Source: Halorubellus sp. JP-L1 (lineage in GTDB: Archaea; Halobacteriota; Halobacteria; Halobacteriales; Natrialbaceae). From it: 64,000 nucleotides of DNA. The first letter of the stretch is position 1, and each line of letters starts with the position of its first letter. The notes under the pieces are model-generated. The model ran no database searches and was not told the origin of the DNA. It saw nothing but the letters and a program-made list of their open reading frames with translations. Shown piece by piece: positions 27,955-42,581 of this stretch. The stretch is from the NCBI RefSeq assembly GCF_011440375.1, contig NZ_JAAOIR010000004.1:1-64000 (forward strand). The letters run 5' to 3'. The position numbers and the translations under genes were made by a program.

Positions 27955-30625
27955 TACCACTCTATCGTTGCGGAAAATCGGCGTAATCACGATGGTGATT
28001 CTCATGGTCGCCGCGCCCGCAGTCGCGGGCATCGCGTTCGGTTTGAACGTCCAGCGTGGCGGGGACGCCGGACAGTTCAACCCGGGCGTCGGCGGCCCGG
28101 ACGACGTACAGATATCGACAGAAAAACCGGTCGTCTTCCAGGGCGAAGAGGACATCAACTTCCTCGGTGAGGACGGCACGCCCATCGACGCGGCGCAGCT
28201 GACCGGCGTCTCCGGTGATGCCGAAGGCATCCCGCTCGAGGAACCGATACCGCAGGACCAGGAACGCGGCCAGTACACTCTCACCGGATCCGGTGACGCC
28301 GCCGGCGTCGTCGTCCAGACGCCGCGGGTCACCGAACTCGAAGTCATGAACGAGCGCGGCGTGGACGTCGAAGGATCCACGGTCCAGGAGGACGAGACGC
28401 TCCTCGTACGCGCCGAATGGAACTTCCAGCAGGCCGAGGACCTCGAACTCGTCATCCGCGACTCGAGAGGCGACGAGATCACTGGCGAAGTACTCGCCGA
28501 CTCCGGTGCGCTCTCCGAGCAACAAGTGAGCGCACTGACCGGCCCGTACGCCCAGAACACCGATCTGGTGACGAACCCCGGCCAGCGCGGCACTGGCACC
28601 GGTATCGTCTACCTCCAGGGACTTGGCCAGCTCGAGGACAGCAACTTCAACGTCAGTCCGACCAACGCCACGGAGGGTAACGCCACGGAGGGTAACGCCA
28701 CGGAGGCCATCGTCACCTCGCTCGACGCGACCTACTGGGCGCTCGACGTCAGCGGCGTCGACGTCAGCGAACTCTCCATCACCGTCGAGGGTTGGGACAA
28801 CCTCGACTTCGGCCCGGCTAGCCAGTCGTCGAGCCTCAGCGTCCAGACCGAGGACGACGTGAACCTCGACCTCCAGGACGAAGCCGTCACTCGTGGCGAG
28901 AACGTCCGGTACGAGGTCCGCGGATCCACCGCTGGCGCGACCCACTACGTCGTCATCGAGGACAGCGAGTTCCGCAACGAGCAGGTCACCGCTGACGTGT
29001 TCCGAGACGTCCAGGACGTCGTCGACAAGGGCACGTTCGACACGAACAACGACAGCGAAGCCGACTTCGCGTGGGCACAGATCGAGATCGACGAGGACAC
29101 CGGCATCGGCGTCGGACAGATCGACACGTCGTTCCTCGACGACGCCTCGGTCAGCATCGACCTCTTCCAGGCCGATCGCTCGCTCGAAGACATCGCAGCG
29201 AACCTCGGGAACACCGAGGACGACCAGACGCTCGACGTCGACCAGGGCGACCTGACGTTCGACAACCCGCCTGGCATCTACGTCGCCGGTAGCGACGTCG
29301 ACGTGAGCGGCACCGCCGCACTCGGCGTGGACGACGTCGTCCTCTACGCTCGCGACCAGGGCGACTGGGAGCTCCTCGACATCAACGAGGACGGCACGCT
29401 CGACGCGGGAGACACCCTCAGCGTCGACTCGACCGGCGAGTGGGATCGCGACGACGTCGTGCTCTCGGAGGCCAGCGACATCTTCTCGATCCCCGGCCGG
29501 TATCGTATCGGCGTGGTCGAGGCGCAGGACGTGATCTCGAACGGCGAGATCCAGACGACGCTCTCGACCTCGGACTTCTCCAGCGCGACGAGCTCGCAGA
29601 CGTCGCTCGTCGTGCAGGAGCCCGGACTCGACGAAGCGCGGACGTTCCAGGCGATCAACGCACAGATCGCGACTGAGGACGGGACCGTCGACGTGATCGG
29701 TACTGCACCGGGTCTCGACTCGGTGATCGCCGTGATGATCGACTCGCGCGGTCGCGTCGCGACCGAGCGCATCACGGTCGACGAGGACGACACGTTCGAC
29801 GAGGACGACATCCCGCTGACCACGATGGACGGACGGGAGCTCAACGAGGGCGAGATCCGCGCGTTCGTCATCGGTCTCGGCCGCGACGGCGTCGCCGGTG
29901 ACGGCGTGCTGCCCGGCCAGCCTGACGCGGAACTCTCCTCGCTCGAGAACTACGTCCAAGGCTTCGGGACCGGACTGACGCAGGAACAGGTCGTCGCGCG
30001 CATCAACGACGAAACCACGAACGAGGTCGCGAGCGACGACCTCTCCATCGAGGAGACCTTCCGGTACACGGACGGCGCGACGTCGATCGAGTCGGTCGGA
30101 CCCGCCGGTAACGTCGAGCAGGGCGAGGTCCAGGACGTCTCCGTCGGCGACCAGATGGTGGTCGCCGGTCTGACGAACCGCAAGCCGGACGACAACTCCA
30201 TCTCCGTCGAGGTCATCGATGGCCCGAGTGCGAACGAGTTCGAGACGAACTCGACCGACGAGTGGGGTCTGGACGGCCGCTGGACCGCCTCGCTCGCCAC
30301 TGACGGCGTGGAGCCCGGCACCTACACGGTCGAGGTCGACGACGGCGACAACACCGACACTGTCCAGGTCGAGATCCTTCCCGCCGACGACGGCGGGAAC
30401 GAGACGCCGACGGATGACAACGAGACTACCACCGAAGCGGAAGAAACCACCACTGAAGCAGAAGAGACCACGACCGAACTGAACGAGACGACGACCGAAG
30501 CGAACGCGTCCGCGATGGCGACCGGCGAGACGCCCGCACGGAGCGGGATGTCGGCGTTCGTCGTCCTCGGACTCGCCCCCGCGATGCTGGTCTTCGCGCT
30601 CGTTCGGCGTCGCCAGAGTCGCTGA
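27944..30625 (+). CDS. csg: S-layer glycoprotein
   Basis: Main cell-envelope protein (893 aa, strongly acidic). An N-terminal signal (RKIGVITMVILMVAAPAVAG) is followed by successive Ig-like domains (for example DDVNLDLQDEAVTRGENVRYEV; PPGIYVAGSDVDVSGTAALG) and a C-terminal domain ending in TYTVEVDDGDNTDTVQVEI. A Thr/Glu-rich, probably O-glycosylated linker (ETTTEAEETTTEAEETTTE) leads to a single hydrophobic helix and RRRQSR. N-glycosylation sequons cluster as NATEGNATEGNATE near residue 240. The order matches the Haloferax/Halobacterium glycoprotein, but the PGF motif before the C-terminal helix is not visible (TPARSGMSAFVV instead). Confidence 0.92.
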   Translation: MTTNTTLSLRKIGVITMVILMVAAPAVAGIAFGLNVQRGGDAGQFNPGVGGPDDVQISTEKPVVFQGEEDINFLGEDGTPIDAAQLTGVSGDAEGIPLEEPIPQDQERGQYTLTGSGDAAGVVVQTPRVTELEVMNERGVDVEGSTVQEDETLLVRAEWNFQQAEDLELVIRDSRGDEITGEVLADSGALSEQQVSALTGPYAQNTDLVTNPGQRGTGTGIVYLQGLGQLEDSNFNVSPTNATEGNATEGNATEAIVTSLDATYWALDVSGVDVSELSITVEGWDNLDFGPASQSSSLSVQTEDDVNLDLQDEAVTRGENVRYEVRGSTAGATHYVVIEDSEFRNEQVTADVFRDVQDVVDKGTFDTNNDSEADFAWAQIEIDEDTGIGVGQIDTSFLDDASVSIDLFQADRSLEDIAANLGNTEDDQTLDVDQGDLTFDNPPGIYVAGSDVDVSGTAALGVDDVVLYARDQGDWELLDINEDGTLDAGDTLSVDSTGEWDRDDVVLSEASDIFSIPGRYRIGVVEAQDVISNGEIQTTLSTSDFSSATSSQTSLVVQEPGLDEARTFQAINAQIATEDGTVDVIGTAPGLDSVIAVMIDSRGRVATERITVDEDDTFDEDDIPLTTMDGRELNEGEIRAFVIGLGRDGVAGDGVLPGQPDAELSSLENYVQGFGTGLTQEQVVARINDETTNEVASDDLSIEETFRYTDGATSIESVGPAGNVEQGEVQDVSVGDQMVVAGLTNRKPDDNSISVEVIDGPSANEFETNSTDEWGLDGRWTASLATDGVEPGTYTVEVDDGDNTDTVQVEILPADDGGNETPTDDNETTTEAEETTTEAEETTTELNETTTEANASAMATGETPARSGMSAFVVLGLAPAMLVFALVRRRQSR

Positions 30626-30739
30626 ACTACCGGAGCTAAGGCTTCCGGCTTTCGCGGTTCTTTCTTCGCCGCCGTCGATCCGACACGCCGGCGACCGCAT
30701 CGGACGCAACGGTGAACGCGCCAGCGGTCCGTGACGTAC

Positions 30740-31765
30740 TCACGAACCGGGCGACGGCAGGTCGTCGTCGACGACCTCGTACACGCGAGTGCGACTCGAC
30801 CCGCTGGCGACGAGGAGGTCGTACTGCTGCATCTTCGAGAGGTACGACCGGATCGTCCGCTCGGTCTTCGGGTCGTCGACGCGCTCGCAGTACGCGTCGT
30901 AGATGCCGCCCGGACTCACCGGCCCGCGCTCGCGGACGACCTCGAACACTGCGACCTGGTCGGGCGTAAGGTTCTCGACGTCCGCCTGCCGGATCTCGGT
31001 TTCGGCGGTCGGGACGGCGTCCTCGAGGACGGCGTCCGTTATCTCGTCCTCGTCCTCGCGCTCCGCGGCGCGCGCCGCACTCCGGAGGATGCCGATGGCG
31101 AGGCGCGCGTCTCCCGCGGCCGCGTCCGCGATGCGCTCCAGTTGCGCGCGGTCGACGACGCCGCGCTCCAGGCCGTTGTCGACGCGGGACTGGAGGATGG
31201 CGACGAGCTGGTCCGCGCCGTACGTGTCCATCCGGACGTGCTCGCTCGACTGGAGGCGACTCCGCAAACGGTTCCCTTCGTGCGCGTACAGGTCGCGTTC
31301 GCGGTTCGCGACCACGACGACCGCGTACTGCGGGAGGCCGTGGAGGTCGTAGATGACGTCCGGCGCCTCCAGCTGGTCGGCCTCGTCGAGCACCACGACC
31401 GCCTGCTGGTCGGCGCGCTCGATGCGGTCGATGAGCTCGTCCGTCGGCGTCGACTGTCGGTGGACGTCGACGGTCCGTCCGACCGCTTCCAGCACGCGAT
31501 AGAGCGCCCGATAGCGCGTGTAGTTCCGCCAGCAGTTCACGTACACCGTCTCGACGTCCAGCGTCGCCTCGCGGAGCTTCCCGGCGACGAACCGCGTCAG
31601 GCACGTCTTCCCCGCGCCAGACGGCCCGGTGACGACGGCCGTGTCCGCGGTCTGCCCGCGCGTCACGGGGTCGAGCACCGAGGAGAGGTGGTTCACCTCG
31701 CCGTCGCGATGCACGACCTCGCTCGGCACGAAGTCGGTCCGCAGCACGCGCGCGTCCCGGATCAC
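30740..31765 (-). CDS. Orc1/Cdc6 family replication initiator-like AAA+ ATPase
   Basis: AAA+ protein (341 aa) of the archaeal Orc1/Cdc6 family, which binds origin recognition boxes and loads the MCM helicase. Walker A is VTGPSGAGKTCLTRFVAG near residue 45, Walker B VVVLDEADQLE, sensor 1 in AVVVVANRERDLY, and the C-terminal winged helix includes TPDQVAVFEVVRERGPVSPGGIYDAYCE. The product is shorter than the main haloarchaeal Orc proteins. The start is GTG 31765. I could not find recognisable origin boxes around it, so it may be an accessory Orc rather than an origin-linked one. Confidence 0.88.
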   Translation of the reverse strand: MIRDARVLRTDFVPSEVVHRDGEVNHLSSVLDPVTRGQTADTAVVTGPSGAGKTCLTRFVAGKLREATLDVETVYVNCWRNYTRYRALYRVLEAVGRTVDVHRQSTPTDELIDRIERADQQAVVVLDEADQLEAPDVIYDLHGLPQYAVVVVANRERDLYAHEGNRLRSRLQSSEHVRMDTYGADQLVAILQSRVDNGLERGVVDRAQLERIADAAAGDARLAIGILRSAARAAEREDEDEITDAVLEDAVPTAETEIRQADVENLTPDQVAVFEVVRERGPVSPGGIYDAYCERVDDPKTERTIRSYLSKMQQYDLLVASGSSRTRVYEVVDDDLPSPGS

Positions 31766-31810
31766 GGCCGGGGCTTCGGCGTGCCGTCACGTAATTCTTC
31801 CCACCGACAG

Positions 31811-31855
31811 CGGCCGTCGTCTGCACGGCCGTCGTTTGCACGGCCGTCGTCCGTC
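31811..31855. repeat. 15-bp repeats upstream of the Orc1/Cdc6 gene
   Basis: Three near-identical consecutive 15-bp units of the type CGGCCGTCGTCTGCA occur 45-90 bp upstream of the Orc1/Cdc6 start. They do not resemble haloarchaeal origin recognition boxes (no T-run plus G-run arrangement), but repeated sites next to an orc gene could bind its product. Confidence 0.6.
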
Positions 31856-31885
31856 CCGCTGTCCTCACCGTTTCGGCCCGGGGCG

Positions 31886-32290
31886 TTACGACGACCGCGT
31901 CGCCACGGTGGCTGTCGACCGTGACGATTCCACCGCGTCATCGGCGGACGCGCTGGTGTGGGCCGCATCGACGACGACGCGATACCGGGGGAGAGCGGGG
32001 TCGTACTCGCGGAGCGTCCCGCGGTAGCGTTCGACCGCCCGCGCCGCTCGCCGCGCGGTCTCGCGGGACGCGAACCGCAATCCGCGAGCGGGCACCGGTT
32101 CCTCCATCCGCCGGGCACCCACGACGCGGTACGCTCCGTTCGCGTCCGCGAGCGACTCGATGGTCGCCCGCGCGTCGGCGAGGGGGGTCGTCGAGGTCGC
32201 GTCGGCGAGGGGGGTCGTCGAGGTCGCGTCGGCGGCCGTCGACTCGTGGACCGATGGTCCGTCGGTCGAGGGTCGGGCGTGCTCGCTCAT
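31886..32290 (-). CDS. Conserved hypothetical protein, paralogue of the upstream gene
   Basis: A 134-residue soluble acidic protein. Residues 40-110 (ARATIESLADANGAYRVVGA ... VERYRGTLREYDPALPRYRVVV) align with residues 20-90 of the neighbouring product (32287-32760), including an almost identical YRRALREHDPALPEY-type segment, so the genes arose by duplication. The N-terminal 35 residues contain a doubled nine-residue element (DATSTTPLA) encoded by an exact 27-bp tandem repeat. ATG 32290 overlaps the upstream stop by 4 bp: a two-gene operon. Function unknown; the iron-box-like promoter suggests an iron-responsive role. Confidence 0.7.
   Translation of the reverse strand: MSEHARPSTDGPSVHESTAADATSTTPLADATSTTPLADARATIESLADANGAYRVVGARRMEEPVPARGLRFASRETARRAARAVERYRGTLREYDPALPRYRVVVDAAHTSASADDAVESSRSTATVATRSS
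32174..32227. repeat. 27-bp exact tandem duplication within a coding region
   Basis: Two exact copies of a 27-bp unit (32174-32200 and 32201-32227) duplicate nine codons in the N-terminal region of the 134-aa paralogue, keeping the frame. Confidence 0.9.
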
Positions 32291-32760
32291 AGCTTGCTCT
32301 GGAGCTGGCGCGTGACGAGTTCGTCGTCGAGCAGTTCGTCGGGCCCGGTGAGGTGAACGAGCGGGGCGTTCTCGACGCGGAGCCACTCGTCGCGGCGGTC
32401 GCCGGTGAGGGTGACGGTCTGTCTGGCGCGCGGGACGCCGTTCGTCCGGCGTTCGCGAGTGGACTCGCGGACGGTCGCCACCTCTATCGGGTTCGAGTCG
32501 GTTTCGCCGACGACGAGGTCGTACTCGGGGAGTGCGGGGTCGTGCTCGCGGAGCGCGCGGCGATAGCGGGCGGCGGCGTCTCGCGCTCGCTCGGCGGCCT
32601 CGTAGTCGTCGAAGGCGAAGCCGGTGACGGGGTCGGGGCGGACGCCCGTCTCCTTCCCGACGACGACGAACTCGCCGGCGGGCGTGGCGAGGTCCTCGAC
32701 GAGTACGCGGGCGTCGGTCAGGGCGTCTCCGGGGTCGGCGACTGGGTCTGACGCGGCCAT
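32287..32760 (-). CDS. Conserved hypothetical protein, first gene of an iron-box-controlled pair
   Basis: A 157-residue soluble protein. Residues 20-90 form the domain shared with the downstream paralogue (ARVLVEDLATPAGEFVVVGK ... YRRALREHDPALPEYDLVVG); the C-terminal 60 residues (RQTVTLTGDRRDEWLRVENAPLVHL ... DELVTRQLQSKL) are unique to this copy. ATG 32760 is preferred to a GTG five codons upstream because the latter lies inside a palindrome. No catalytic motif is seen. Two TTTAGG/CCTAAA palindromes surround its promoter, pointing to control by a DtxR-family metalloregulator. Confidence 0.72.
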   Translation of the reverse strand: MAASDPVADPGDALTDARVLVEDLATPAGEFVVVGKETGVRPDPVTGFAFDDYEAAERARDAAARYRRALREHDPALPEYDLVVGETDSNPIEVATVRESTRERRTNGVPRARQTVTLTGDRRDEWLRVENAPLVHLTGPDELLDDELVTRQLQSKL

Positions 32761-32764
32761 GGGG

Positions 32765-32780
32765 TTTAGGCTCACCTAAA
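32765..32780. promoter_or_regulatory. Iron-box-like palindrome 1
   Basis: TTTAGGCTCACCTAAA is a 6+6 bp perfect inverted repeat with a 4-bp centre, 5-20 bp upstream of the ATG at 32760, i.e. over the likely transcription start. It matches the TTAGG...CCTAA form bound by DtxR/IdeR-type iron-dependent repressors, including the haloarchaeal Idr/SirR proteins. Confidence 0.75.
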
Positions 32781-32800
32781 CACAGTAGAGTCTTTCGGAA

Positions 32801-32816
32801 TTTAGGCGGGCCTAAA
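32801..32816. promoter_or_regulatory. Iron-box-like palindrome 2
   Basis: TTTAGGCGGGCCTAAA is a second 6+6 bp inverted repeat, 36 bp (centre to centre) from the first. The two flank the position expected for the TATA box of the paralogous-pair operon, an arrangement suited to repression. Confidence 0.75.
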
Positions 32817-33079
32817 TGACGCTGCCGATGACAGTGGGTGGCTGAAGCGCCAGGACTGGGACGACGAAGATCGCGTCGACGTCTACGGCGAGGGAAGACG
32901 AGCGTCCAGTGCGTCGACTACAAGCGTCGGGCGTTCCTGCCGCTGGCGGACCGCTTCGACCGACCCCTCTGACCTCAAACGGACGACGCGATACCGGCCA
33001 GCGTCGGATGCTGGCCGGTTCTGGTCGCGGTTACCCCGGAGGCTTTTTGCTATTCGGCCCTTTTTGTCCGATATATCTG
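32817..33079. other. Divergent promoter region of the paralogous pair and the squalene/phytoene synthase
   Basis: The gap between genes (32761-33079, 319 bp) holds the two iron boxes at its left end. At its right end a T-rich box (TTTTTGCTATTC, 33044-33055) lies about 28 nt before the ATG at 33080, a leaderless-type promoter for the synthase. No gene is seen between them. Confidence 0.55.
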
Positions 33080-34147
33080 ATGAGCGGGCGCGAGTGTTAC
33101 CGTGGTGATGTCGACGAGGCGTGGTGTCACGAGGCTGTCCAGGGCGTGTCGCGGACGTTCGCCCTGACAGTCGACGTACTCGAGGAACCGATGTCGACGC
33201 ACATCTGTCTCGGGTACCTCCTGTGTCGCGTTGCGGACACCGTGGAGGACGCAGGACACCTCCCGCCAGGTGAACAGGCGACGCTCCTCCGAACGTACCG
33301 GGACGCGGTGGACCCCGACGCGACCACCACCATCGAGTCGTTCCGCGAGGACGTCGACGAGTACGTGCCCGCCGCCGACGGTCGGAGCGACGACTGGGAG
33401 GTCGTCGCGGAGTCGCCGACGGTGCTCGCGACGTTCGAGGCGCTCCCCGACGACGTCCGTCGCGCGGTCGTCGGGCCGGTCGTCGAGATGGTCGACGGGA
33501 TGGCGTCGTTCGTCGAACGACACAGTCACACGGGCGGGTTGCGGATCGACGACGCGGCAGAGCTCGAGGAGTACTGTCACTACGCGGCCGGGACGGTCGG
33601 CGAGCTCGTGACGAATCTCCTGACGCGGACGGACGTCGACCAGGAGCAGGCCCGCCGCATGCAGGGGACCGCCGAGGAGTTCGGCCAGTTGCTCCAGTTG
33701 ACGAACGTCTCGAAGGACGTCTACGACGACTACGTCGAGGAGAACAACGTCTACCTGCCCGACGAGTGGCTGCAGGCGGAGGGCGTCCCGCAAGAGGAGG
33801 TCGTCGACCCCGAGCATCGCGGCGCGGCGGCACGGGTCGTCGAGCGCACCGCGAATCACGCGCGCGGGTTCCTCGACGACGCGCAGACGTACCTCGAGTC
33901 GATGCCGCTCGTACACGGGAACACGCTGGAGGCGTGGAGCGTCCCGTTCCTGCTCGCGGTCGGCACGCTCCGCGAACTCGGCGCGCGCCCCGAGGACGCA
34001 CTCACCGAGCGCGGCGTGAAGATCTCTCGCGAGGAGGTGTTTGCGGTCACGCACGCCGCGTCGACGACGGGCCGCGAGGCGCTCGCGGACCTCCGCGAGA
34101 CGATCGCGCACGAGCCCTACGAGGGCGTCGAATCCAGCGTGGACTGA
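33080..34147 (+). CDS. Squalene/phytoene synthase family protein (squalene synthase-like)
   Basis: Head-to-head prenyl condensing enzyme (355 aa) making squalene from farnesyl diphosphate or phytoene from geranylgeranyl diphosphate. Aspartate-rich motif 1 is CRVADTVEDAGH near residue 55; motif 2 is TNVSKDVYDDYVEENNVYLP near residue 215. The early segment VSRTFALTVDVLEEPMSTHICLGYLLCR resembles bacterial and archaeal squalene synthases more than CrtB, so squalene is my preferred product; squalene and its derivatives are abundant haloarchaeal lipids. ATG 33080 follows a TATA-like box by about 28 nt. Confidence 0.85.
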   Translation: MSGRECYRGDVDEAWCHEAVQGVSRTFALTVDVLEEPMSTHICLGYLLCRVADTVEDAGHLPPGEQATLLRTYRDAVDPDATTTIESFREDVDEYVPAADGRSDDWEVVAESPTVLATFEALPDDVRRAVVGPVVEMVDGMASFVERHSHTGGLRIDDAAELEEYCHYAAGTVGELVTNLLTRTDVDQEQARRMQGTAEEFGQLLQLTNVSKDVYDDYVEENNVYLPDEWLQAEGVPQEEVVDPEHRGAAARVVERTANHARGFLDDAQTYLESMPLVHGNTLEAWSVPFLLAVGTLRELGARPEDALTERGVKISREEVFAVTHAASTTGREALADLRETIAHEPYEGVESSVD

Positions 34148-34308
34148 CCCGCTCGCAGGCGTCTCTGTCGTAGTCCGCTCGGTCGTAGTCCGCTCGGTCC
34201 TTAGCGGCTCTGCCGCTGCGCCCCGTCGCTCGTCGTTCTCTCGTTCGCCGTCGTCCGAACAGTCGGTGGGTCGCCTCGTCCCCGTCCGAATTCGGCAGGA
34301 CCCACACG

Positions 34309-35803
<1,495 letters not shown>

Positions 35804-35848
35804 CCGCTCTCAGGCGCTCTCGGAGGTCGCGGTCGCGACGCGAGCACG

Positions 35849-35886
35849 TTCCCGGAAGTTTCCGGAAACGACACGCCTCGCGTTAA
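35849..35886 (+). promoter_or_regulatory. Double palindrome and box A of the RecA-like gene (site A)
   Basis: TTCCCGGAA (35849-35857) and TTTCCGGAAA (35859-35868) are two adjacent palindromes about one helical turn apart, followed by ACACGCC and a weak box A (GTTAA, 35882-35886) 29 nt before the ATG at 35912. Thirty of 39 bases from 35849, including both palindromes, recur at 38115 with the same 43-nt distance to an ATG. Position upstream of box A suits an activator. Confidence 0.7.
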
Positions 35887-35911
35887 CTGATACGCGGTCG
35901 TCCCTCCGCGT

Positions 35912-36949
35912 ATGCCAGCGCCGATGCACTCGAACGCGACGGATCGATCCGACCGCCCAGACCGCCCCGAGCGCGGCGCCGACCGGAACCGGCGCGCGCT
36001 CGCCACCGACGACCACGCGCCCGATCCCGTGCTGCCGTCGCTCGACGACGGCGTCACGCTCTTGAACGTCGACGGTCGCGGCGTCCCCGTCCTCCAGTCG
36101 CTCGCGCTCGACCACCTCCTCACCGAACCCGGGCCAGCGTACTGGGTCGACACCGCCGGGTGCGCGCGCACCACGACGCTCGCTCGCGTCGCGCCGTCCT
36201 GGCGGCTCCTCGAACGCATCCAGGTGGCTCGCGGCTTCACGCCCCACCAGCATCACGCCGCCGTCGCGGACGTCCCGGACGCGATCGCCGAAACCACCGC
36301 CGCCGCAGCAGGCAGCGCCGCCGACGGCGCGGACGCTACTGACGGCGCGGACGCCACGGCGAGCGACGCACGCGACCCCGCGCTCCTCGTCGCACCCGTC
36401 GTCGACGGCCGCTACCGCGACGCCGACGACCTCCCGCACGAGCACGCGACGCAGCTCCTCGCGCGAACGCTCGCCAGGCTCCGCCGGTACGCCGACGCCT
36501 ACGACGCCCCCGTCCTCCTCACGCGCACCGGCGGCGGTGGTGCCAGCGACGGGACCGACGACGCGGACGCGTTCGCCAGCGTGGTCGACCGCGCCGCCGA
36601 CCACCACCTCCGCTGCGAGCGCACGCCGCAGGGCCCGCGGTTCGTCGGCGACGACGACGTCGAGACGCTCGTCTACCCCCAGCCCGACGGAACGCTCCAG
36701 ACCACGCTCGCCTACTGGCGCACCGTCCTCGACCGGCGGGCGAGCGCCGCCGGCGTCGACGTCGACGGCCCGACGCCGACCGCGAACGCGGGCGGGAGCG
36801 GGACCGCACCGCGCGGGTCGTCCTCGCTCGGGTCGGCCACCGCGTCGCCCGACCGGTTCGGCGACGCCGACGGCGTCCTCGCCAGCGGCGGACGCGGCCA
36901 CGGCGCGGCACACGAACGCGCGCTCTCCCCGTGGCGAGGCACTCGCTGA
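35912..36949 (+). CDS. RecA/RadA-like protein without a P-loop, PolB2 cassette
   Basis: Soluble protein (345 aa). Residues 46-120 follow the RadA/RadB core order (LLNVDGRGVPVLQSLALDHLL, then AYWVDTAGCARTTTLARVAP, then LERIQVARGFTPHQHHAAV), but the Walker A position reads GRGVPVLQS, so the P-loop is lost. A later strand (LLVAPVVDGRYRDADD, near residue 150) stands where Walker B would be, followed by the helix TQLLARTLARLRRYADAYDAPVLLTRTG. The C-terminal 100 residues are disordered and Gly/Ser/Ala-rich. It shares its promoter element with the PolB2 operon downstream, so it is probably its partner, perhaps like bacterial ImuA. The fold is inferred by eye. Confidence 0.65.
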   Translation: MPAPMHSNATDRSDRPDRPERGADRNRRALATDDHAPDPVLPSLDDGVTLLNVDGRGVPVLQSLALDHLLTEPGPAYWVDTAGCARTTTLARVAPSWRLLERIQVARGFTPHQHHAAVADVPDAIAETTAAAAGSAADGADATDGADATASDARDPALLVAPVVDGRYRDADDLPHEHATQLLARTLARLRRYADAYDAPVLLTRTGGGGASDGTDDADAFASVVDRAADHHLRCERTPQGPRFVGDDDVETLVYPQPDGTLQTTLAYWRTVLDRRASAAGVDVDGPTPTANAGGSGTAPRGSSSLGSATASPDRFGDADGVLASGGRGHGAAHERALSPWRGTR

Positions 36950-37047
36950 ACGCGCCCGGTCGAAGGACATCTCGGGGACGGACCGGCGACTCGCTCGACG
37001 CCCGATCCGAAATCCACCGTCGAAACCATCGCCACGCAGTGCTGTGA

Positions 37048-37055
37048 CTTTAACA
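37048..37055 (+). promoter_or_regulatory. TATA box of the nucleotidyltransferase gene
   Basis: CTTTAACA lies 23-30 nt before the ATG at 37078. No TTCCGGAA palindrome is present here, so this gene pair has its own promoter, unlike the genes on either side of it. Confidence 0.55.
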
Positions 37056-37077
37056 CGAAGCCGACGCAAGTCGTGGC

Positions 37078-37680
37078 ATGGGCGGCGTCACGCTCCGCGA
37101 CGGCGAACTCGTGGTCGAGCGACCGCCGAACGAACTCGACGAACTCGCCATCGCGTTCTCGCGGACTCTCTCCCGACTCGGAATCCGACACGCGTTCGTC
37201 GCCGGCTACCTCGCGATCCTCACCGGCCGTGCTCGCGCGACCGACGACATCGACGTGTTCGTCGAGCCGCTCTCGGCGGACGAGGTCGACGAACTCGTCG
37301 CGGTACTCGAGTCAGAGGGATACTGGGGGCCGGCGATGCCGCTCGACGAGATGCACGGGAACCTCGACGCCGGGACGAACATCTGGGTCGCCCCCGAGGG
37401 CCAGATGACGCCGCACCTGGAGGTGAAGTTCCCCGTCGACGAGTTCGACCGCGCGTCGCTCGACCACGCGATCACCGCGCACGTCGGGGACGCGACGATC
37501 CCGGTCGGCCCCCTCGAACTCCAGATCGCGTACAAGCTCCACCTCGGCGCGCAGAAGGACTTCGAGGACGCCGCGCACCTCTACGTGCTGTTCCGGGAAA
37601 GCCTTAGGACGACGCACCTCGAAACGTGGGTCGAGAAGCTCGGGGTGACCGACGAGTATGAGCGACTCCAGTCGATCTGA
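37078..37680 (+). CDS. Nucleotidyltransferase-fold protein (AbiEii/DUF6036-like)
   Basis: Soluble 200-residue protein with the minimal nucleotidyltransferase pattern: RHAFVAGYLAILTGRARATDDIDVFVEPL (G-x-x-A ... R-x-T-x-DID) near residues 38-65, an acidic strand HLEVKFPVD, and the C-terminal helix KLHLGAQKDFEDAAHLYVLF, which matches the K...RD..D element of AbiEii/DUF1814-type transferases. Such proteins act as toxin or antitoxin partners in type IV-like systems. The downstream gene overlaps it by 23 bp and encodes a small protein that could be the partner. It has its own TATA box. Confidence 0.7.
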   Translation: MGGVTLRDGELVVERPPNELDELAIAFSRTLSRLGIRHAFVAGYLAILTGRARATDDIDVFVEPLSADEVDELVAVLESEGYWGPAMPLDEMHGNLDAGTNIWVAPEGQMTPHLEVKFPVDEFDRASLDHAITAHVGDATIPVGPLELQIAYKLHLGAQKDFEDAAHLYVLFRESLRTTHLETWVEKLGVTDEYERLQSI

Positions 37681-37957
37681 CGCGCTCGACGCTAAGCACC
37701 GCGCGAACCGAGCGGCGCGACTGGAGGGCGTCAAGCGCTGGGTCGCGTACATCCGAGAGCAGCCGGCGGCGGTCTGGGGCGAGGAGCAGAACCGCGTCGT
37801 GAACGCGCAACTGGAGAGCGCGCGAGCGACGGACGTCTCGCCGGAGCACGAGCGGCGCGTGACCGCATTCGGCGAGGCGATGACCGCGGACGCGGACGAC
37901 GGGGACGCCGACGACGGGGACGCAGCCGATGTGGACGCCGACGACGTGGCGGAGTGA
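37658..37957 (+). CDS. Small hypothetical protein coupled to the nucleotidyltransferase
   Basis: A 99-residue protein: a basic-helical N-terminal half (RANRAARLEGVKRWVAYIRE ... VWGEEQNRVVNAQLESAR) and an acidic Ala/Asp tail. It starts 23 bp inside the preceding gene, so translation is coupled. I recognise no named family; size, overlap and pairing with a nucleotidyltransferase suggest a toxin-antitoxin-like module, but nothing in this protein proves it. Confidence 0.65.
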   Translation: MSDSSRSDALDAKHRANRAARLEGVKRWVAYIREQPAAVWGEEQNRVVNAQLESARATDVSPEHERRVTAFGEAMTADADDGDADDGDAADVDADDVAE

Positions 37958-38114
37958 CGCGGTGTCGGCCGTCGCCACCGAATCTCCCTGCTATCTCTAC
38001 CACTCCAGTAGCGAGCGACGCACGTCAGGGGGACGACCGAGTTCACGACGAATTCCGGAAACCGCAAACCGAACGATACGAGGCAGCTACCGGCTCGTCT
38101 CGCCACATCGAGCG

Positions 38115-38152
38115 TTCCCGGAAATTTCCGGAAATCACACGCCCTCGGTTAC
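38115..38152 (+). promoter_or_regulatory. Double palindrome and box A of the PolB2 operon (site B)
   Basis: TTCCCGGAA (38115-38123) and TTTCCGGAAA (38125-38134), then ACACGCC and a weak box A (GTTAC, 38148-38152) 29 nt before the ATG at 38178. Base for base it parallels site A at 35849-35886. A further single TTCCGGAA lies upstream at 38053-38060. Confidence 0.7.
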
Positions 38153-38177
38153 GTGCGTGGTGGCCGTTCACTCGCGT

Positions 38178-38270
38178 ATGCAGGACTCGTCTCGACTCGG
38201 TGATTGGACGTGCTCGACCGCGAACCGTACGCATCGAGGGATGCGCTCGCCGCGAGGAGGTGGTGCGTGA
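38178..38270 (+). CDS. 30-codon leader ORF of the PolB2 operon
   Basis: ATG 38178 to TGA 38270 encodes 30 residues (begins MQDSSRLGDWTCSTANRTHR, ends RGGGA). The ATG sits at the same distance from the double palindrome and box A as the start of the RecA-like gene, so it is very probably the first codon of the transcript. Its stop overlaps the next ATG (TGATG) and its last codons contain the Shine-Dalgarno sequence GGAGGT of that gene. It may exist to deliver ribosomes to the operon. Confidence 0.5.
   Translation: MQDSSRLGDWTCSTANRTHRGMRSPRGGGA
38257..38262 (+). promoter_or_regulatory. Shine-Dalgarno sequence deciding the start at 38270
   Basis: GGAGGT lies 7 nt before the ATG at 38270, inside the leader ORF. 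A strong SD is unusual among the mostly leaderless genes of this window and supports translation of 38270-38833 as an internal gene of the operon. Confidence 0.7.
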
Positions 38271-38833
38271 TGGGGCGGACGAACCCGACGTACCGCGACG
38301 CGCTGTCGGCGACCGAGAGTCGCTGGCAGCCCTACCGGCGGGCGCTCCGGCGCGTCGACCGGGAGCGATTCGATCGATTGTTCGCGTACGCTCGCGAGCA
38401 CGCGGACGCGGCCGGGACGCGGAACCACCGGAATCCGCTGGTCGCGGCGCTCGTGGGGATCGCGCTCGAGCAGGAGCGCCGGCACGACGACGCCGAGAGC
38501 GAGCGCGAGGGGCTGGCGGACGAGCTCGCGGCGGTCGCGGACCGACTGGACCGCATCGACGGCCACCGCGACCGGTCGGATGACCGATTGGACCGCATCG
38601 ACGGCCGGCTCGACCGGTTCGAGGACCGGCTGGACGAACTGGAGGCGACGGTGGACGCGGCCGCGCTTGACTACCACCTCGCGGAGTCGACGTTCGACGC
38701 GCACCTCGGGGACGCAGCCCTCGGAGACGAGTTACCGCCGGGACCGGCGACGTTCGACCGCGACCGCGAGCGGCCACCCGGTGACGCGGACGACGTGGAC
38801 GCGGACGCGGACGACGGCGAGGGGGTGGAGTAG
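38270..38833 (+). CDS. Helical DUF protein of the PolB2 operon
   Basis: Soluble 187-residue protein. The N-terminal 75 residues form a helical domain (MGRTNPTYRDALSATESRWQ ... RRALRRVDRERFDRLFAYAREHADAAG ... NPLVAALVGIALEQERRHDD), a family I have seen only as hypothetical in haloarchaea. Residues 80-130 are a heptad-like coiled coil with repeats of DRLDRIDG, and the C-terminus is an acidic tail. It is preceded by a good SD and followed after 2 bp by the polymerase start, so it is likely a polymerase accessory or oligomerisation factor. Function is inferred from context only. Confidence 0.72.
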   Translation: MGRTNPTYRDALSATESRWQPYRRALRRVDRERFDRLFAYAREHADAAGTRNHRNPLVAALVGIALEQERRHDDAESEREGLADELAAVADRLDRIDGHRDRSDDRLDRIDGRLDRFEDRLDELEATVDAAALDYHLAESTFDAHLGDAALGDELPPGPATFDRDRERPPGDADDVDADADDGEGVE

Positions 38834-38835
38834 TC

Positions 38836-41253
38836 GTGGCGTTCGTCGTGGACTTCCTCGACGACGGCCGCGTGCGGTCGTGGACGCTCGACGCCGACGG
38901 CGGGGCGACGGCGACGACGCGCGCGTACGCGCCGCGGTTCTACGTGGGCGTCCGCGGGCGTCGCGACGGCCAGGGACGACTGCGCGAGGGTGCGGACGAC
39001 CGCGGGACGTTCCTCGACTTGCGCGCGCACTACGAGGCGCACCCGGACGTGCTCGGGACGACGTTCGTCCACAAGCGCACGTACTTCGGGCGGCCGCCCG
39101 AGCGCGTGCTGGCGGTGGACGCGACGCACGTCGACCGCGTCCGGTCGCTCGCCCGGCAGTCCCACGAGGTCGCGCCGACCGGCGACTTCGCGTGCTTCGA
39201 CGTCGACCTGTCGCCGGGGTTCCGGTACCACCTGGACGCGCTCGGCGACGCGGGCGGGCGCGTCGCCGGCGGAATCTCCGACTCCAGCGACGCCACCGAC
39301 GCTCCGGCGCCGGCGGACCCGACGCCCGCCCGCGACCCGGTGACGCTCGAGATATCGGTCCCCGAGGGAGAGCGCGGGAACGACGCGCACGAGGCGCTCG
39401 TCGTCGACAGCGTCGCGTCGACGACGCGACGAGCAGACGGAACCGCGAGCGGCGGTTCCGTCGGCGGCGAGCGCGTCGCGGGCGACCCGGCCGCGGTCGC
39501 GTCGGCGGTCGAGTCCCGCGTCGCCGCGGCGGACCCGGACGTGCTCGTGCTCGACACCGCGACGCTCGTCCCACGGCTCGCGGCCGCGAGCGAGCGCCCG
39601 GCGAGCGAGTACGCGCTCGGCCGTCGCCCGGGCTACCGCGAGCTCGCGGGCGAGTCGACGTACACGAGCTACGGCCGGGTCGGGCACTCGCCAGCGAGGT
39701 ACGCGATCCCCGGACGGGCGATCGTGGACCGCGCGAACACGTTCTTCCTGAACGAGACGAGCATGGCGGGCGTCCTCGACCTCGTCGGGCGCTCGCACAA
39801 GCCCCTCCAGGAGGCGGCGTGGGCGAGCATCGGGAACGTCCTCACCGCGATCCAGATCCGGGAGGCGCGCTCGCGGGACGTGCTCGTGCCGTGGCACGCG
39901 TGGCGTCACGAGTCGTTCGGGTCGCTGCGGACGCTTCACGACGCTGACCGCGGCGGCCTCACGCTCTCCCCCGCGGTCGGCCGGCACCGGGACGTGCACG
40001 AGTTGGACTTCGCGAGCCTCTACCCGAACGTCATCTGCACGCGGAACGTCTCCCCGGACACCGTCCGGTGCGCGTGCCACCGCGAGCGCGAGGACGTCCC
40101 CGGGCTCGGGTACGCGATCTGCGACGACGACGGCTACCTGCCGGACGTCCTCCGGCCGCTCGTCGACGACCGCCGCGACGTCAAGGCAGCCATCGCCGCC
40201 GAGCGCGCGAGCGACGACCCGGACCGCGAACGCATCGCGGAACTCGAGGGTCGGTCGAGTGCCATCAAGTGGATCCTCGTCTCCTGCTTCGGCTACCAGG
40301 GGTTCTCGAACGCGAAGTTCGGCCGCATCGAGTGCCACGAGGCCATCAACGCCTATGCCAGGGAGATCCTCCTGTCCGCGAAGGAGCGCCTCGAGGCGGG
40401 CGGATGGCGCGTCCTCCACGGCATCGTCGACAGCCTCTGGGTGACGCCCGCACCGGACGTCCCCGACGACGACCGCGAGCCGCTGGACGCGCTCGCGAGC
40501 GAGATTACGGACGCCGCCGGCATCCGCCTGGAGCACGAGGCCGCGTACGACTGGGTGGCGTTCTGTCCGCTCGCCCACGAGGACGGCACCTCGACCGCGG
40601 ACGCGTCGACGTCGGCCGTCAGCGGCGCGCTCACGAAGTACGTCGCGAAGCGCGCGGACGCGCCCGACGAGGTCCCGGCGGACGACGACTGCACCGCAGA
40701 CGAGGCGGCGCCTGGAGGCGCCGCCGATGCGACCACCTTCGGCGAGGCGTTCAAACTTCGCGGGATCGCCGCGCGCCGCCGGAACACGCCCGCGTTCGTC
40801 GCGGCCGTCCAGCGCGACTGCCTGCGCGTTCTCGACGCCACCGACGACCCCGACGCCGTCTGCGAGCGCGCTCGCGAAGCCGTCGACCGTCTCCGCCGCG
40901 GCGACGTCGACCCGGACCGCCTCGTCGCGCGCCGCCGCACCAGCCAGCCAGCCGACGCCTACGACCGCTACACGGACGCGACCGCCGCGCTCGACCGCGC
41001 CCGCGACCGCGGCGTCCCCGCAGGTCCCGGCCGCGACGTCCGGTACGTCGTCGTCGACGGCGACAGGGACACTCGCGAGCGCGTCCGCCTCGCCAGCGAA
41101 CCCGTCGACCGGTACGACGCCGACCACTACGCCACCCAGGTCGTGCGCGCCGTTGCCGACGTCCTCGGGCCGCTCGACTGGAGCAGAGACGACGTCCGCG
41201 ACGCCATCCACGGCCACGAGAACGCGAGCATCCGGGGGTTCTCGGCGAAGTGA
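38836..41253 (+). CDS. polB2: PolB2-type family B DNA polymerase
   Basis: Family B polymerase of the archaeal PolB2 group (805 aa). Motif A is ELDFASLYPNVI with Asp about residue 391; motif B is IKWILVSCFGYQGF with Lys about 478; motif C is HGIVDSLWV in place of YGDTDS, keeping only the second Asp (about 532). The exonuclease region is degenerate (FACFDVDLSPGF). PolB2 enzymes were first predicted to be inactive, but crenarchaeal members have been reported to act in damage tolerance. GTG 38836 starts 2 bp after the upstream stop; operon with the leader ORF and helical DUF gene. It lies downstream of the same double palindrome as the RecA-like gene. Confidence 0.85.
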   Translation: MAFVVDFLDDGRVRSWTLDADGGATATTRAYAPRFYVGVRGRRDGQGRLREGADDRGTFLDLRAHYEAHPDVLGTTFVHKRTYFGRPPERVLAVDATHVDRVRSLARQSHEVAPTGDFACFDVDLSPGFRYHLDALGDAGGRVAGGISDSSDATDAPAPADPTPARDPVTLEISVPEGERGNDAHEALVVDSVASTTRRADGTASGGSVGGERVAGDPAAVASAVESRVAAADPDVLVLDTATLVPRLAAASERPASEYALGRRPGYRELAGESTYTSYGRVGHSPARYAIPGRAIVDRANTFFLNETSMAGVLDLVGRSHKPLQEAAWASIGNVLTAIQIREARSRDVLVPWHAWRHESFGSLRTLHDADRGGLTLSPAVGRHRDVHELDFASLYPNVICTRNVSPDTVRCACHREREDVPGLGYAICDDDGYLPDVLRPLVDDRRDVKAAIAAERASDDPDRERIAELEGRSSAIKWILVSCFGYQGFSNAKFGRIECHEAINAYAREILLSAKERLEAGGWRVLHGIVDSLWVTPAPDVPDDDREPLDALASEITDAAGIRLEHEAAYDWVAFCPLAHEDGTSTADASTSAVSGALTKYVAKRADAPDEVPADDDCTADEAAPGGAADATTFGEAFKLRGIAARRRNTPAFVAAVQRDCLRVLDATDDPDAVCERAREAVDRLRRGDVDPDRLVARRRTSQPADAYDRYTDATAALDRARDRGVPAGPGRDVRYVVVDGDRDTRERVRLASEPVDRYDADHYATQVVRAVADVLGPLDWSRDDVRDAIHGHENASIRGFSAK

Positions 41254-41465
41254 CCTCGAAACGAACAGTCGGGTGGCTCCAGCGAGTCACTATCCGACGC
41301 GAGGAACCGGTCGGCGAGACGGTTCGTGAAGCGGTCGAGCACCTGTTTCCGGACGCGACTCGACGGCGGCGACGAACGCACGCCCTGGTCGGTTCGGGTC
41401 CGCCCGTTTCCAGTGGCGTCGCAATCCGAGCGATTATTCGAGTTCGGCTCGAAGTCGACCGCAAC

Positions 41466-42581
41466 GTGTTATTCGACTCGACGTCGCTCGGCGAGCTGAC
41501 ATTGGACAATCGCGTTGGCCTGGCGCCGATGACGCGGGTGAGTGCGACGGACGACGGGCGAGCAACCGACAGGATGGCCCAGTACTACGCGAAGTTCGCC
41601 ACGGGTGGGTTCTCGTTCCTCGTGACCGAAGGCGTCTACACCGACGACGCCTACAGCAAGGGCTACCTGAACCAGCCCGGGCTCGTCACGGACGGCCACG
41701 TCGACGGGTGGACGCAGGTCACCGACGCCGTACACGACGAGGGTGGGGCGATCTTCGCGCAATTGATGCACAGCGGCGCCCAGAACCAGGGGATTCCACG
41801 GGACGCCGACCGGGAGACCATCGCGCCGTCCGCGGTCCAGCCCGAGGGCGAGAAGAACCCCGCCTACGGTGGCGACGGCCCGTATCCCGAGCCGAAGGAA
41901 GCCACCAGGGACGACCTCGACACTGCGCGCGAGGGGTTCGTCACGGCGGCGACGAACGCCGCCGACGCCGGGTTCGATGGCGTCGAACTGCACGCCGCGA
42001 ACGGCTACCTCCTCAACGAGTTCCTCTCGACGAAGATGAACCGGCGTGACGACGAGTACGGCGGTGCGCCGGACGCTCGCGTGCGGTATCCGGCCGAAGT
42101 CATCGAGGCAGTCGCCGATGCGACCCCAGACGACTTCGTCGTTGGCGTCCGGGTCTCGCAGTCGATGGTGACCGACTACGGCTACGAGTGGCCCGAGGGC
42201 GAAGCGGCAGCGGCCGTGTTCTTCGAGACGCTCTCGAGTGCTGGGGCGGATTACGTCCACACGACCGAACGCTACGCCACGGAACCGACGTTCGGGGACG
42301 ACGGCCCGTCGCTGGCGGAAGCCGCCGTCGAGTACGTCACCGACGACACGGTCGTCATCGCCAACGGCAACCTGGGCACGCCCGAGGCAGCACGCCAAGT
42401 CCTCGAGGACGGAGCAGACCTCCTGACGCTCGGGACGAGCGCACTCGCGAACCCGGACTGGCCAACGCGAGTCGCAGCCGGCGAAGAACTCGCAGAACTC
42501 GACCGGACCGCGATGCTGGAACCGGAGGCAACGATCGGCGACGACGAACTCTCGGTCCACGAATCCCCCGTCGACGACTGA
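41466..42581 (+). CDS. NADH:flavin oxidoreductase, Old Yellow Enzyme family
   Basis: FMN-dependent ene-reductase-type TIM barrel (371 aa). Family features are NRVGLAPMTRVSA at the N-terminus, AQLMHSGAQNQG (FMN and substrate contacts), VELHAANGYLLNEFLS near residue 170 (the HxxHGYL-type block), RVSQSMVTDYG, and the FMN phosphate loop VVIANGNLGTPEAA ... LLTLGTSALANPDW. Starts at GTG 41466; there is no suitable ATG, and the open frame upstream overlaps polB2 in another frame. There is no 4Fe-4S/Rossmann extension, so it is the short form. Physiological substrate unknown. Confidence 0.9.
   Translation: MLFDSTSLGELTLDNRVGLAPMTRVSATDDGRATDRMAQYYAKFATGGFSFLVTEGVYTDDAYSKGYLNQPGLVTDGHVDGWTQVTDAVHDEGGAIFAQLMHSGAQNQGIPRDADRETIAPSAVQPEGEKNPAYGGDGPYPEPKEATRDDLDTAREGFVTAATNAADAGFDGVELHAANGYLLNEFLSTKMNRRDDEYGGAPDARVRYPAEVIEAVADATPDDFVVGVRVSQSMVTDYGYEWPEGEAAAAVFFETLSSAGADYVHTTERYATEPTFGDDGPSLAEAAVEYVTDDTVVIANGNLGTPEAARQVLEDGADLLTLGTSALANPDWPTRVAAGEELAELDRTAMLEPEATIGDDELSVHESPVDD

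Follow-up and report, generated by a model that had tools for sequence, protein, structure and literature searches.

The window, i.e., the whole stretch of 64,000 nucleotides analysed from Halorubellus sp. JP-L1, carries on its plus strand the genes iRadA (35912-36949), PPB2 (38270-38833) and PolB2 (38836-41253). To the features of the original prediction we add a nucleotidyltransferase (NTase)-like gene, a 99-aa ORF and, on the minus strand, an orc/cdc6 gene (30749-31765). The features are as follows:

30749-31765, minus strand: orc/cdc6-family gene (AAA+ with Cdc6 lid), candidate regulator; by alignment 60% identical (E 1e-131) to its cdc6 counterparts at related PolB2 loci, with Pfam Cdc6_lid and AAA in relatives
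35849-35868, plus strand: double-dyad core, mutasome box of the iRadA promoter, TTCCCGGAAGTTTCCGGAAA; same position before iRadA elsewhere in haloarchaea
35869-35892, plus strand: conserved CGACACGCC block and weak TATA-like stretch TTAACTGATA, from the box towards the start codon; sequence and promoter alignment, putative promoter role
35912-36949, plus strand: iRadA, predicted RadA/Rad51 fold without Walker A; kept in 66/81 related loci
37078-37680, plus strand: NTase-like gene inside the cassette; weak AbiEii match, E 0.0019
37658-37957, plus strand: 99-aa ORF overlapping the 3' end of the NTase-like gene; among the loci examined conserved in L007 only
38052-38061, plus strand: possible distal dyad ATTCCGGAAA, one mismatch, 73 bp above the proximal dyad; sequence, with a parallel in L007
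38115-38134, plus strand: double-dyad core, second mutasome box, PPB2-PolB2 promoter, TTCCCGGAAATTTCCGGAAA; sequence match, whole-genome pattern search and iRadA matrix
38270-38833, plus strand: PPB2 (partner of PolB2, arCOG07300) with MGRT N-terminal arm; alignment, MGRT motif as in PMC11791011
38836-41253, plus strand: PolB2 DNA polymerase, motif A DFASLYP, motif C HGIVDS; NCBIfam match and motif alignment

The nearest relative, Halorubellus salinus GX3 (L007; same genus), has the same layout and a PolB2 identity of 78%. Between the mutasome genes and orc/cdc6 there is an ORF (34337-35803) that looks ThiC-like by eye, and no Rfam matches were found at 30000-42000.

Identity of the three proteins

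The iRadA protein contains no lysine, and the Walker A motif GK[ST] is consequently absent. Since a sequence search of the PDB gave no match, a fold search was needed: the AlphaFold2 model (pLDDT 72, pTM 0.71, core mostly 80-97) matched RadA, Rad51 and DMC1 structures in Foldseek with probability 1.00, E 1e-9 and TMt up to 0.65. Judged from this model, iRadA is a RadA/Rad51-fold protein lacking the ATPase motif Walker A. The earlier reading of 35912-36949 as a RadA/RadB-like protein with a destroyed Walker A is thus borne out, and the RadA/RecA fold is present in the predicted structure. None of iRadA, the NTase-like protein and the 99-aa ORF was assigned to a Pfam family.

The PolB2 protein matched NCBIfam PRK05761.1-4 with E 2e-286, above the family cut-off, and is by sequence a PolB2-group family B polymerase. 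When aligned to Deep Vent polymerase the family B YIDTD reads GIVDS, i.e., Ile replaces the first catalytic Asp in motif C and DTD has become IVD. Motif A stays DFxSLYP, and IVD is present in 76/81 of the PolB2 sequences collected, such that the degenerate motif C (HGIVDS) noticed earlier in a family B polymerase is the norm in this group. For PPB2, an upstream in-frame start was dropped and the start set at 38270; the N-terminus then reads MGRTNPTYRD and the protein aligns with short proteins preceding PolB2 throughout haloarchaea. An MGRT arm distinguishes PPB2 (PMC11791011). From this arm and the alignment, the small helical protein, originally listed as a helical/coiled-coil DUF protein, is identified as PPB2, arCOG07300.

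An operon that combines PolB2 with arCOG07300 and decayed homologues of RadA, with haloarchaea and arORC2 neighbours included, was described by Makarova et al. 2014 (PMC4104785), and PolB2, iRadA and PPB2 were modelled as a 1:1:3 heteropentamer and compared with Pol V by Timinskas et al. 2025 (PMC11791011). A Haloferax review also places polB2 near a radA-like gene (PMC7776575). Because the operon was described in 2014 and modelled in 2025, the protein part of our finding is not new: the mutasome reading of the cassette agrees with the published PolB2, iRadA and PPB2 system, while the suggestion that the system is new does not stand. The window shares with the published PolB2 mutasome (PMC11791011, PMC4104785) the three protein families, the order iRadA-PPB2-PolB2, the MGRT arm, the IVD motif C, the inactive RadA and a nearby orc/cdc6 gene, but differs in that its operon is split by the NTase-like gene and the small ORF, with one copy of the box for each half.

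Conservation of the gene set in haloarchaea

Co-occurrence was analysed in 81 PolB2 loci, i.e., the window and 80 loci retrieved for the similarity of their PolB2, with neighbours considered within about 7 kb. In agreement with the expectation that the genes co-occur in other haloarchaea, iRadA was near PolB2 in 66/81 loci and PPB2 in 67/81. The common orders were cdc6-iRadA-PPB2-PolB2 (n=33) and iRadA-PPB2-PolB2 (n=26). The remainder were mostly PolB2 without both partners nearby, or contig ends; PolB2 stood alone in 14/81 loci, some of these at contig ends. Among 242 genomes of the class Halobacteria, iRadA was present in 144. With respect to iRadA and the cdc6 subfamily, 77 of the 242 genomes have both, 37 iRadA only, 10 cdc6 only and 118 neither (Fisher p 1e-23, phylogeny not corrected for).

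A promoter box shared by the mutasome genes

A shared promoter element, marginal in the original prediction, is the most informative part of the finding. It is located at 35849-35868 and 38115-38134, and these two copies are unique in the whole genome. Specifically, TTCCCGGAAnTTTCCGGAAA is present at 35849 and 38115, while a mean of 0.01 matches is expected per 64 kb, and in a shuffle test of the shared element no shuffle reached the observed number. A pattern search of the whole 3.76-Mb genome gave two copies of the core dyad TTTCCGGAAA, both at the iRadA and PPB2-PolB2 promoters. In the sister genome (4.1 Mb) all four TTTCCGGAAA copies are at the same two promoters, with cdc6 30 kb away; exact dyads lie 74 bp above both boxes of this sister locus (L007). 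The first dyad agrees between the two boxes within each Halorubellus species, TTCCC in one and TTTCC in the other (window 35849-35886 and 38115-38152; L007 4242 and 6292), suggesting that the two promoters evolve in concert.

Across haloarchaea the box before iRadA reads TTyCnnGAAAnnCGGAArCGaCACGCC-n3-sTTAT. The related box in iRadA promoters of other haloarchaea, TTyCCnGAAAnGCGGAArCGmCACGCCGCGGCTTATC, is usually situated about 61 bp before the start, and PolB2 carries its own box where it forms a separate transcription unit. A scoring matrix was built from six non-redundant iRadA boxes and no PolB2 promoters, with a background of 2.4 million positions. This matrix placed 38/39 held-out solitary PolB2 promoters, and likewise both window promoters, above the 99.99th percentile, and the polB2 promoter on pNRC200 of Halobacterium NRC-1 also scored high. 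Searching 242 genomes with exact 15-mer cores gave 51 sites of at least 24 bits, and 47 of these are before iRadA, PolB2 or cdc6. Many other exact 15-mer matches lie inside coding DNA with low scores and were treated as chance. In many loci dyads are repeated 70-95 bp further upstream.

In pairwise comparison the identity of the box core is 0.77-0.87 (0.82 for iRadA against PolB2 promoters) and that of the flanks mostly 0.24-0.36, which argues that the box is under constraint and does not reflect simple shared ancestry. Mere inherited promoter similarity was rejected, as identity declines towards background in the flanks while iRadA and PolB2 promoters have the box in common. The box was absent from the main texts of PMC11791011 and PMC4104785, and no report of it was found in the main texts of the open-access articles searched. 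The apparent novelty is in the conserved box common to the cassette promoters and not in the proteins.

The Orc/Cdc6 link

The window orc/cdc6 gene belongs to a subfamily with dyad promoters, for which Pfam assigns AAA and Cdc6 lid domains in relatives; a winged helix would be expected from the family. For 25 cdc6/orc genes of this subfamily, in 25 loci, a dyad with no more than one mismatch starts 53-64 bp ahead of the gene, and frequently another dyad lies 80-95 bp above it. Downstream of the cdc6 dyads the sequence is ACCCGGTCAC-TTTTTAT instead of GACACGCC. Most cdc6 promoters have the dyad and lack the CACGCC block, and 1/30 passes the iRadA matrix; the full box is present before cdc6 in L178 and L085. 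No dyad was found in the promoter of the window's own cdc6 gene (30749-31765). Among 68 genomes with a close iRadA, 14 have no close cdc6 match, and several of these 14 keep an intact box. One plasmid cdc6 gene (L165) has an intact dyad promoter, but its reading frame appears to be frameshifted.

Orc1-2 of Sulfolobus regulates the damage response, binding its own promoter and acting on this and further promoters (PMC9738581), and dpo2 (PolB2) is damage-inducible in Sulfolobales (PMC7390963). The situation described here may resemble the Orc1-2 regulon, with an Orc1/Cdc6-family protein tied to damage-response genes and to its own promoter. The Sulfolobus site is, however, ANTTTC while the haloarchaeal one is the TTTCCGGAAA dyad, and a regulator role is only presumed for the haloarchaeal protein. 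By analogy with Orc1-2, the Orc/Cdc6 paralogue is the leading candidate regulator of what we infer to be a dedicated regulon, which probably is damage-inducible. The UV-B motif of Halobacterium radA1, TTTCACTTTCA (PMC2556686), is likewise haloarchaeal and situated some 50 bp ahead of the start codon in UV-induced genes, but has another sequence and other genes (radA1, top6B, vng17, vng280), and it is absent from both window promoters. That TTTCCGGAAA is unlike both the ANTTTC site and TTTCACTTTCA counts against the proposed Orc/Cdc6 switch, as do the window cdc6 promoter with no dyad, the lack of the CACGCC block in most cdc6 promoters and the 14 iRadA genomes with no close cdc6.

The inserted genes in Halorubellus

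Among the loci examined the NTase-like gene is present in the cassette in Halorubellus only. Its AlphaFold model, built from two sequences, is poor (pLDDT 38), and the protein is therefore named from the weak AbiEii match (E 0.0019) and sequence pattern alone. Profile searches gave no family match for the 99-aa ORF (37658-37957). Together the two overlapping genes (37078-37957) may form a toxin-antitoxin-like pair, and another NTase-like ORF was seen by eye between cdc6 and iRadA in L034. Insertion of the NTase-like module would have split the operon in Halorubellus, where a separate copy of the box precedes PPB2-PolB2, and the second box would hold both halves of the split cassette under the same control.

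Discussion

Among mutagenic polymerases, PolB2 is the main one studied in Sulfolobus. Observed here are the identity of the genes, the predicted fold of iRadA, the co-occurrence and a conserved box ahead of almost all separate mutasome transcription units examined in haloarchaea. We consider it likely, from sequence and from analogy with Sulfolobus, that the window contains a haloarchaeal PolB2 translesion mutasome locus in which the box is the operator and an Orc/Cdc6-family protein the switch. Following the published modelling, iRadA, PPB2 and PolB2 would assemble into a complex for the extension of mismatched or damaged primer ends, with PPB2 bridging PolB2 and iRadA through the MGRT arm. 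Damage would induce the mutasome genes, as suggested by Sulfolobus. Activation would take place through the box, a putative operator just upstream of the weak TATA, and the Orc/Cdc6-family protein, which has the same dyad in its own promoter in most close relatives, would switch the mutasome on. A more far-reaching version, which we regard as plausible but put forward tentatively, is a LexA-like logic without LexA: the Orc/Cdc6 paralogue would sense replication stress, bind the box at its own and the mutasome promoters and confine mutagenic synthesis to damage, and some transposons would have captured the box.

The strongest competing explanation of the box is that another, unlinked regulator binds it and that cdc6 is one more target or a hitchhiking neighbour. 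Retention of the box in some genomes without a close cdc6, the box variant in cdc6 promoters and the window cdc6 without a box are all in keeping with this, but the cdc6 subfamily is tightly linked to and co-occurs with iRadA, and Sulfolobus Orc1-2 provides a precedent; on balance we find an unlinked regulator possible yet somewhat doubtful. It is unlikely that the locus is a plain, known PolB2 mutasome operon in which the box, as a conserved core promoter in a BRE/TATA context, has no regulator dedicated to it. The system has indeed been published, and the box abuts a TATA-like stretch and stops close to the start codon, but a general core element would be common, whereas this box is about 30 bp long and gene-specific, its high-scoring copies in 242 genomes are almost only at mutasome genes, and dyads recur 70-95 bp further upstream in many loci.

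The GGAAAC half-sites resemble archaeal origin recognition boxes (ORBs), and many related loci are on megaplasmids with cdc6 adjoining, as would be expected if the dyads were ORBs and the locus is, or was, a replication origin of the neighbouring Orc/Cdc6. We give this minor alternative little weight: polB2 and iRadA promoters that are kilobases away from cdc6 also carry the box on its own, each gene family keeping it at a similar short spacing from the start codon, and the distance to cdc6 in the sister genome is 30 kb. Finally, a convergent ImuA-ImuB-DnaE2-like cassette unique to haloarchaea, as originally proposed, would account for a RecA-fold partner beside an error-prone polymerase, and a RecA-family partner is what the cassette has in common with ImuA-ImuB-DnaE2 and E. 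coli Pol V. The polymerase families and adaptor of those systems are, however, unrelated to the cassette, in which profile searches revealed no Y-family ImuB and no C-family DnaE2 but a family B polymerase and a small helical protein. With a decayed RadA/Rad51 partner, PPB2 in place of Y-family ImuB and a polymerase of family B, there is no need to invoke convergence. Moreover, the three families, already described, are present also in Sulfolobales, other archaea and bacteria, and the MGRT PPB2 and the PRK05761.1-4 match of PolB2 refute this cassette as a new system, which makes the proposal hardly credible.

Returning to the box as operator with an Orc/Cdc6-family switch, the open-access full texts searched gave no account of PolB2 control in haloarchaea and no haloarchaeal damage-induction data. 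A short, nearly system-specific box together with a linked candidate regulator makes haloarchaeal PolB2 control directly testable in tractable species, i.e., Halobacterium NRC-1, with the box before the pNRC200 polB2, and Haloferax volcanii, with polB2 near a radA-like gene. If true, this suggests that the use of an Orc1/Cdc6 paralogue as a damage regulator would extend beyond Crenarchaeota.

Boxes at other genes

The box or its core was also observed upstream of transposase genes in L203, L211 and L230, which have the same element, and in L184, L237 and L232. The transposases behind it are DUF772, DDE_Tnp_1 and two transposase-like proteins without a Pfam match; the insertion elements may have captured a damage-type promoter. 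In L202 (677-1402, minus strand) a full box directly follows the cdc6 stop codon and precedes a gene for a 242-aa protein with a WDIETTGFGW motif, which has no Pfam match and by look is 3'-5' exonuclease-like.
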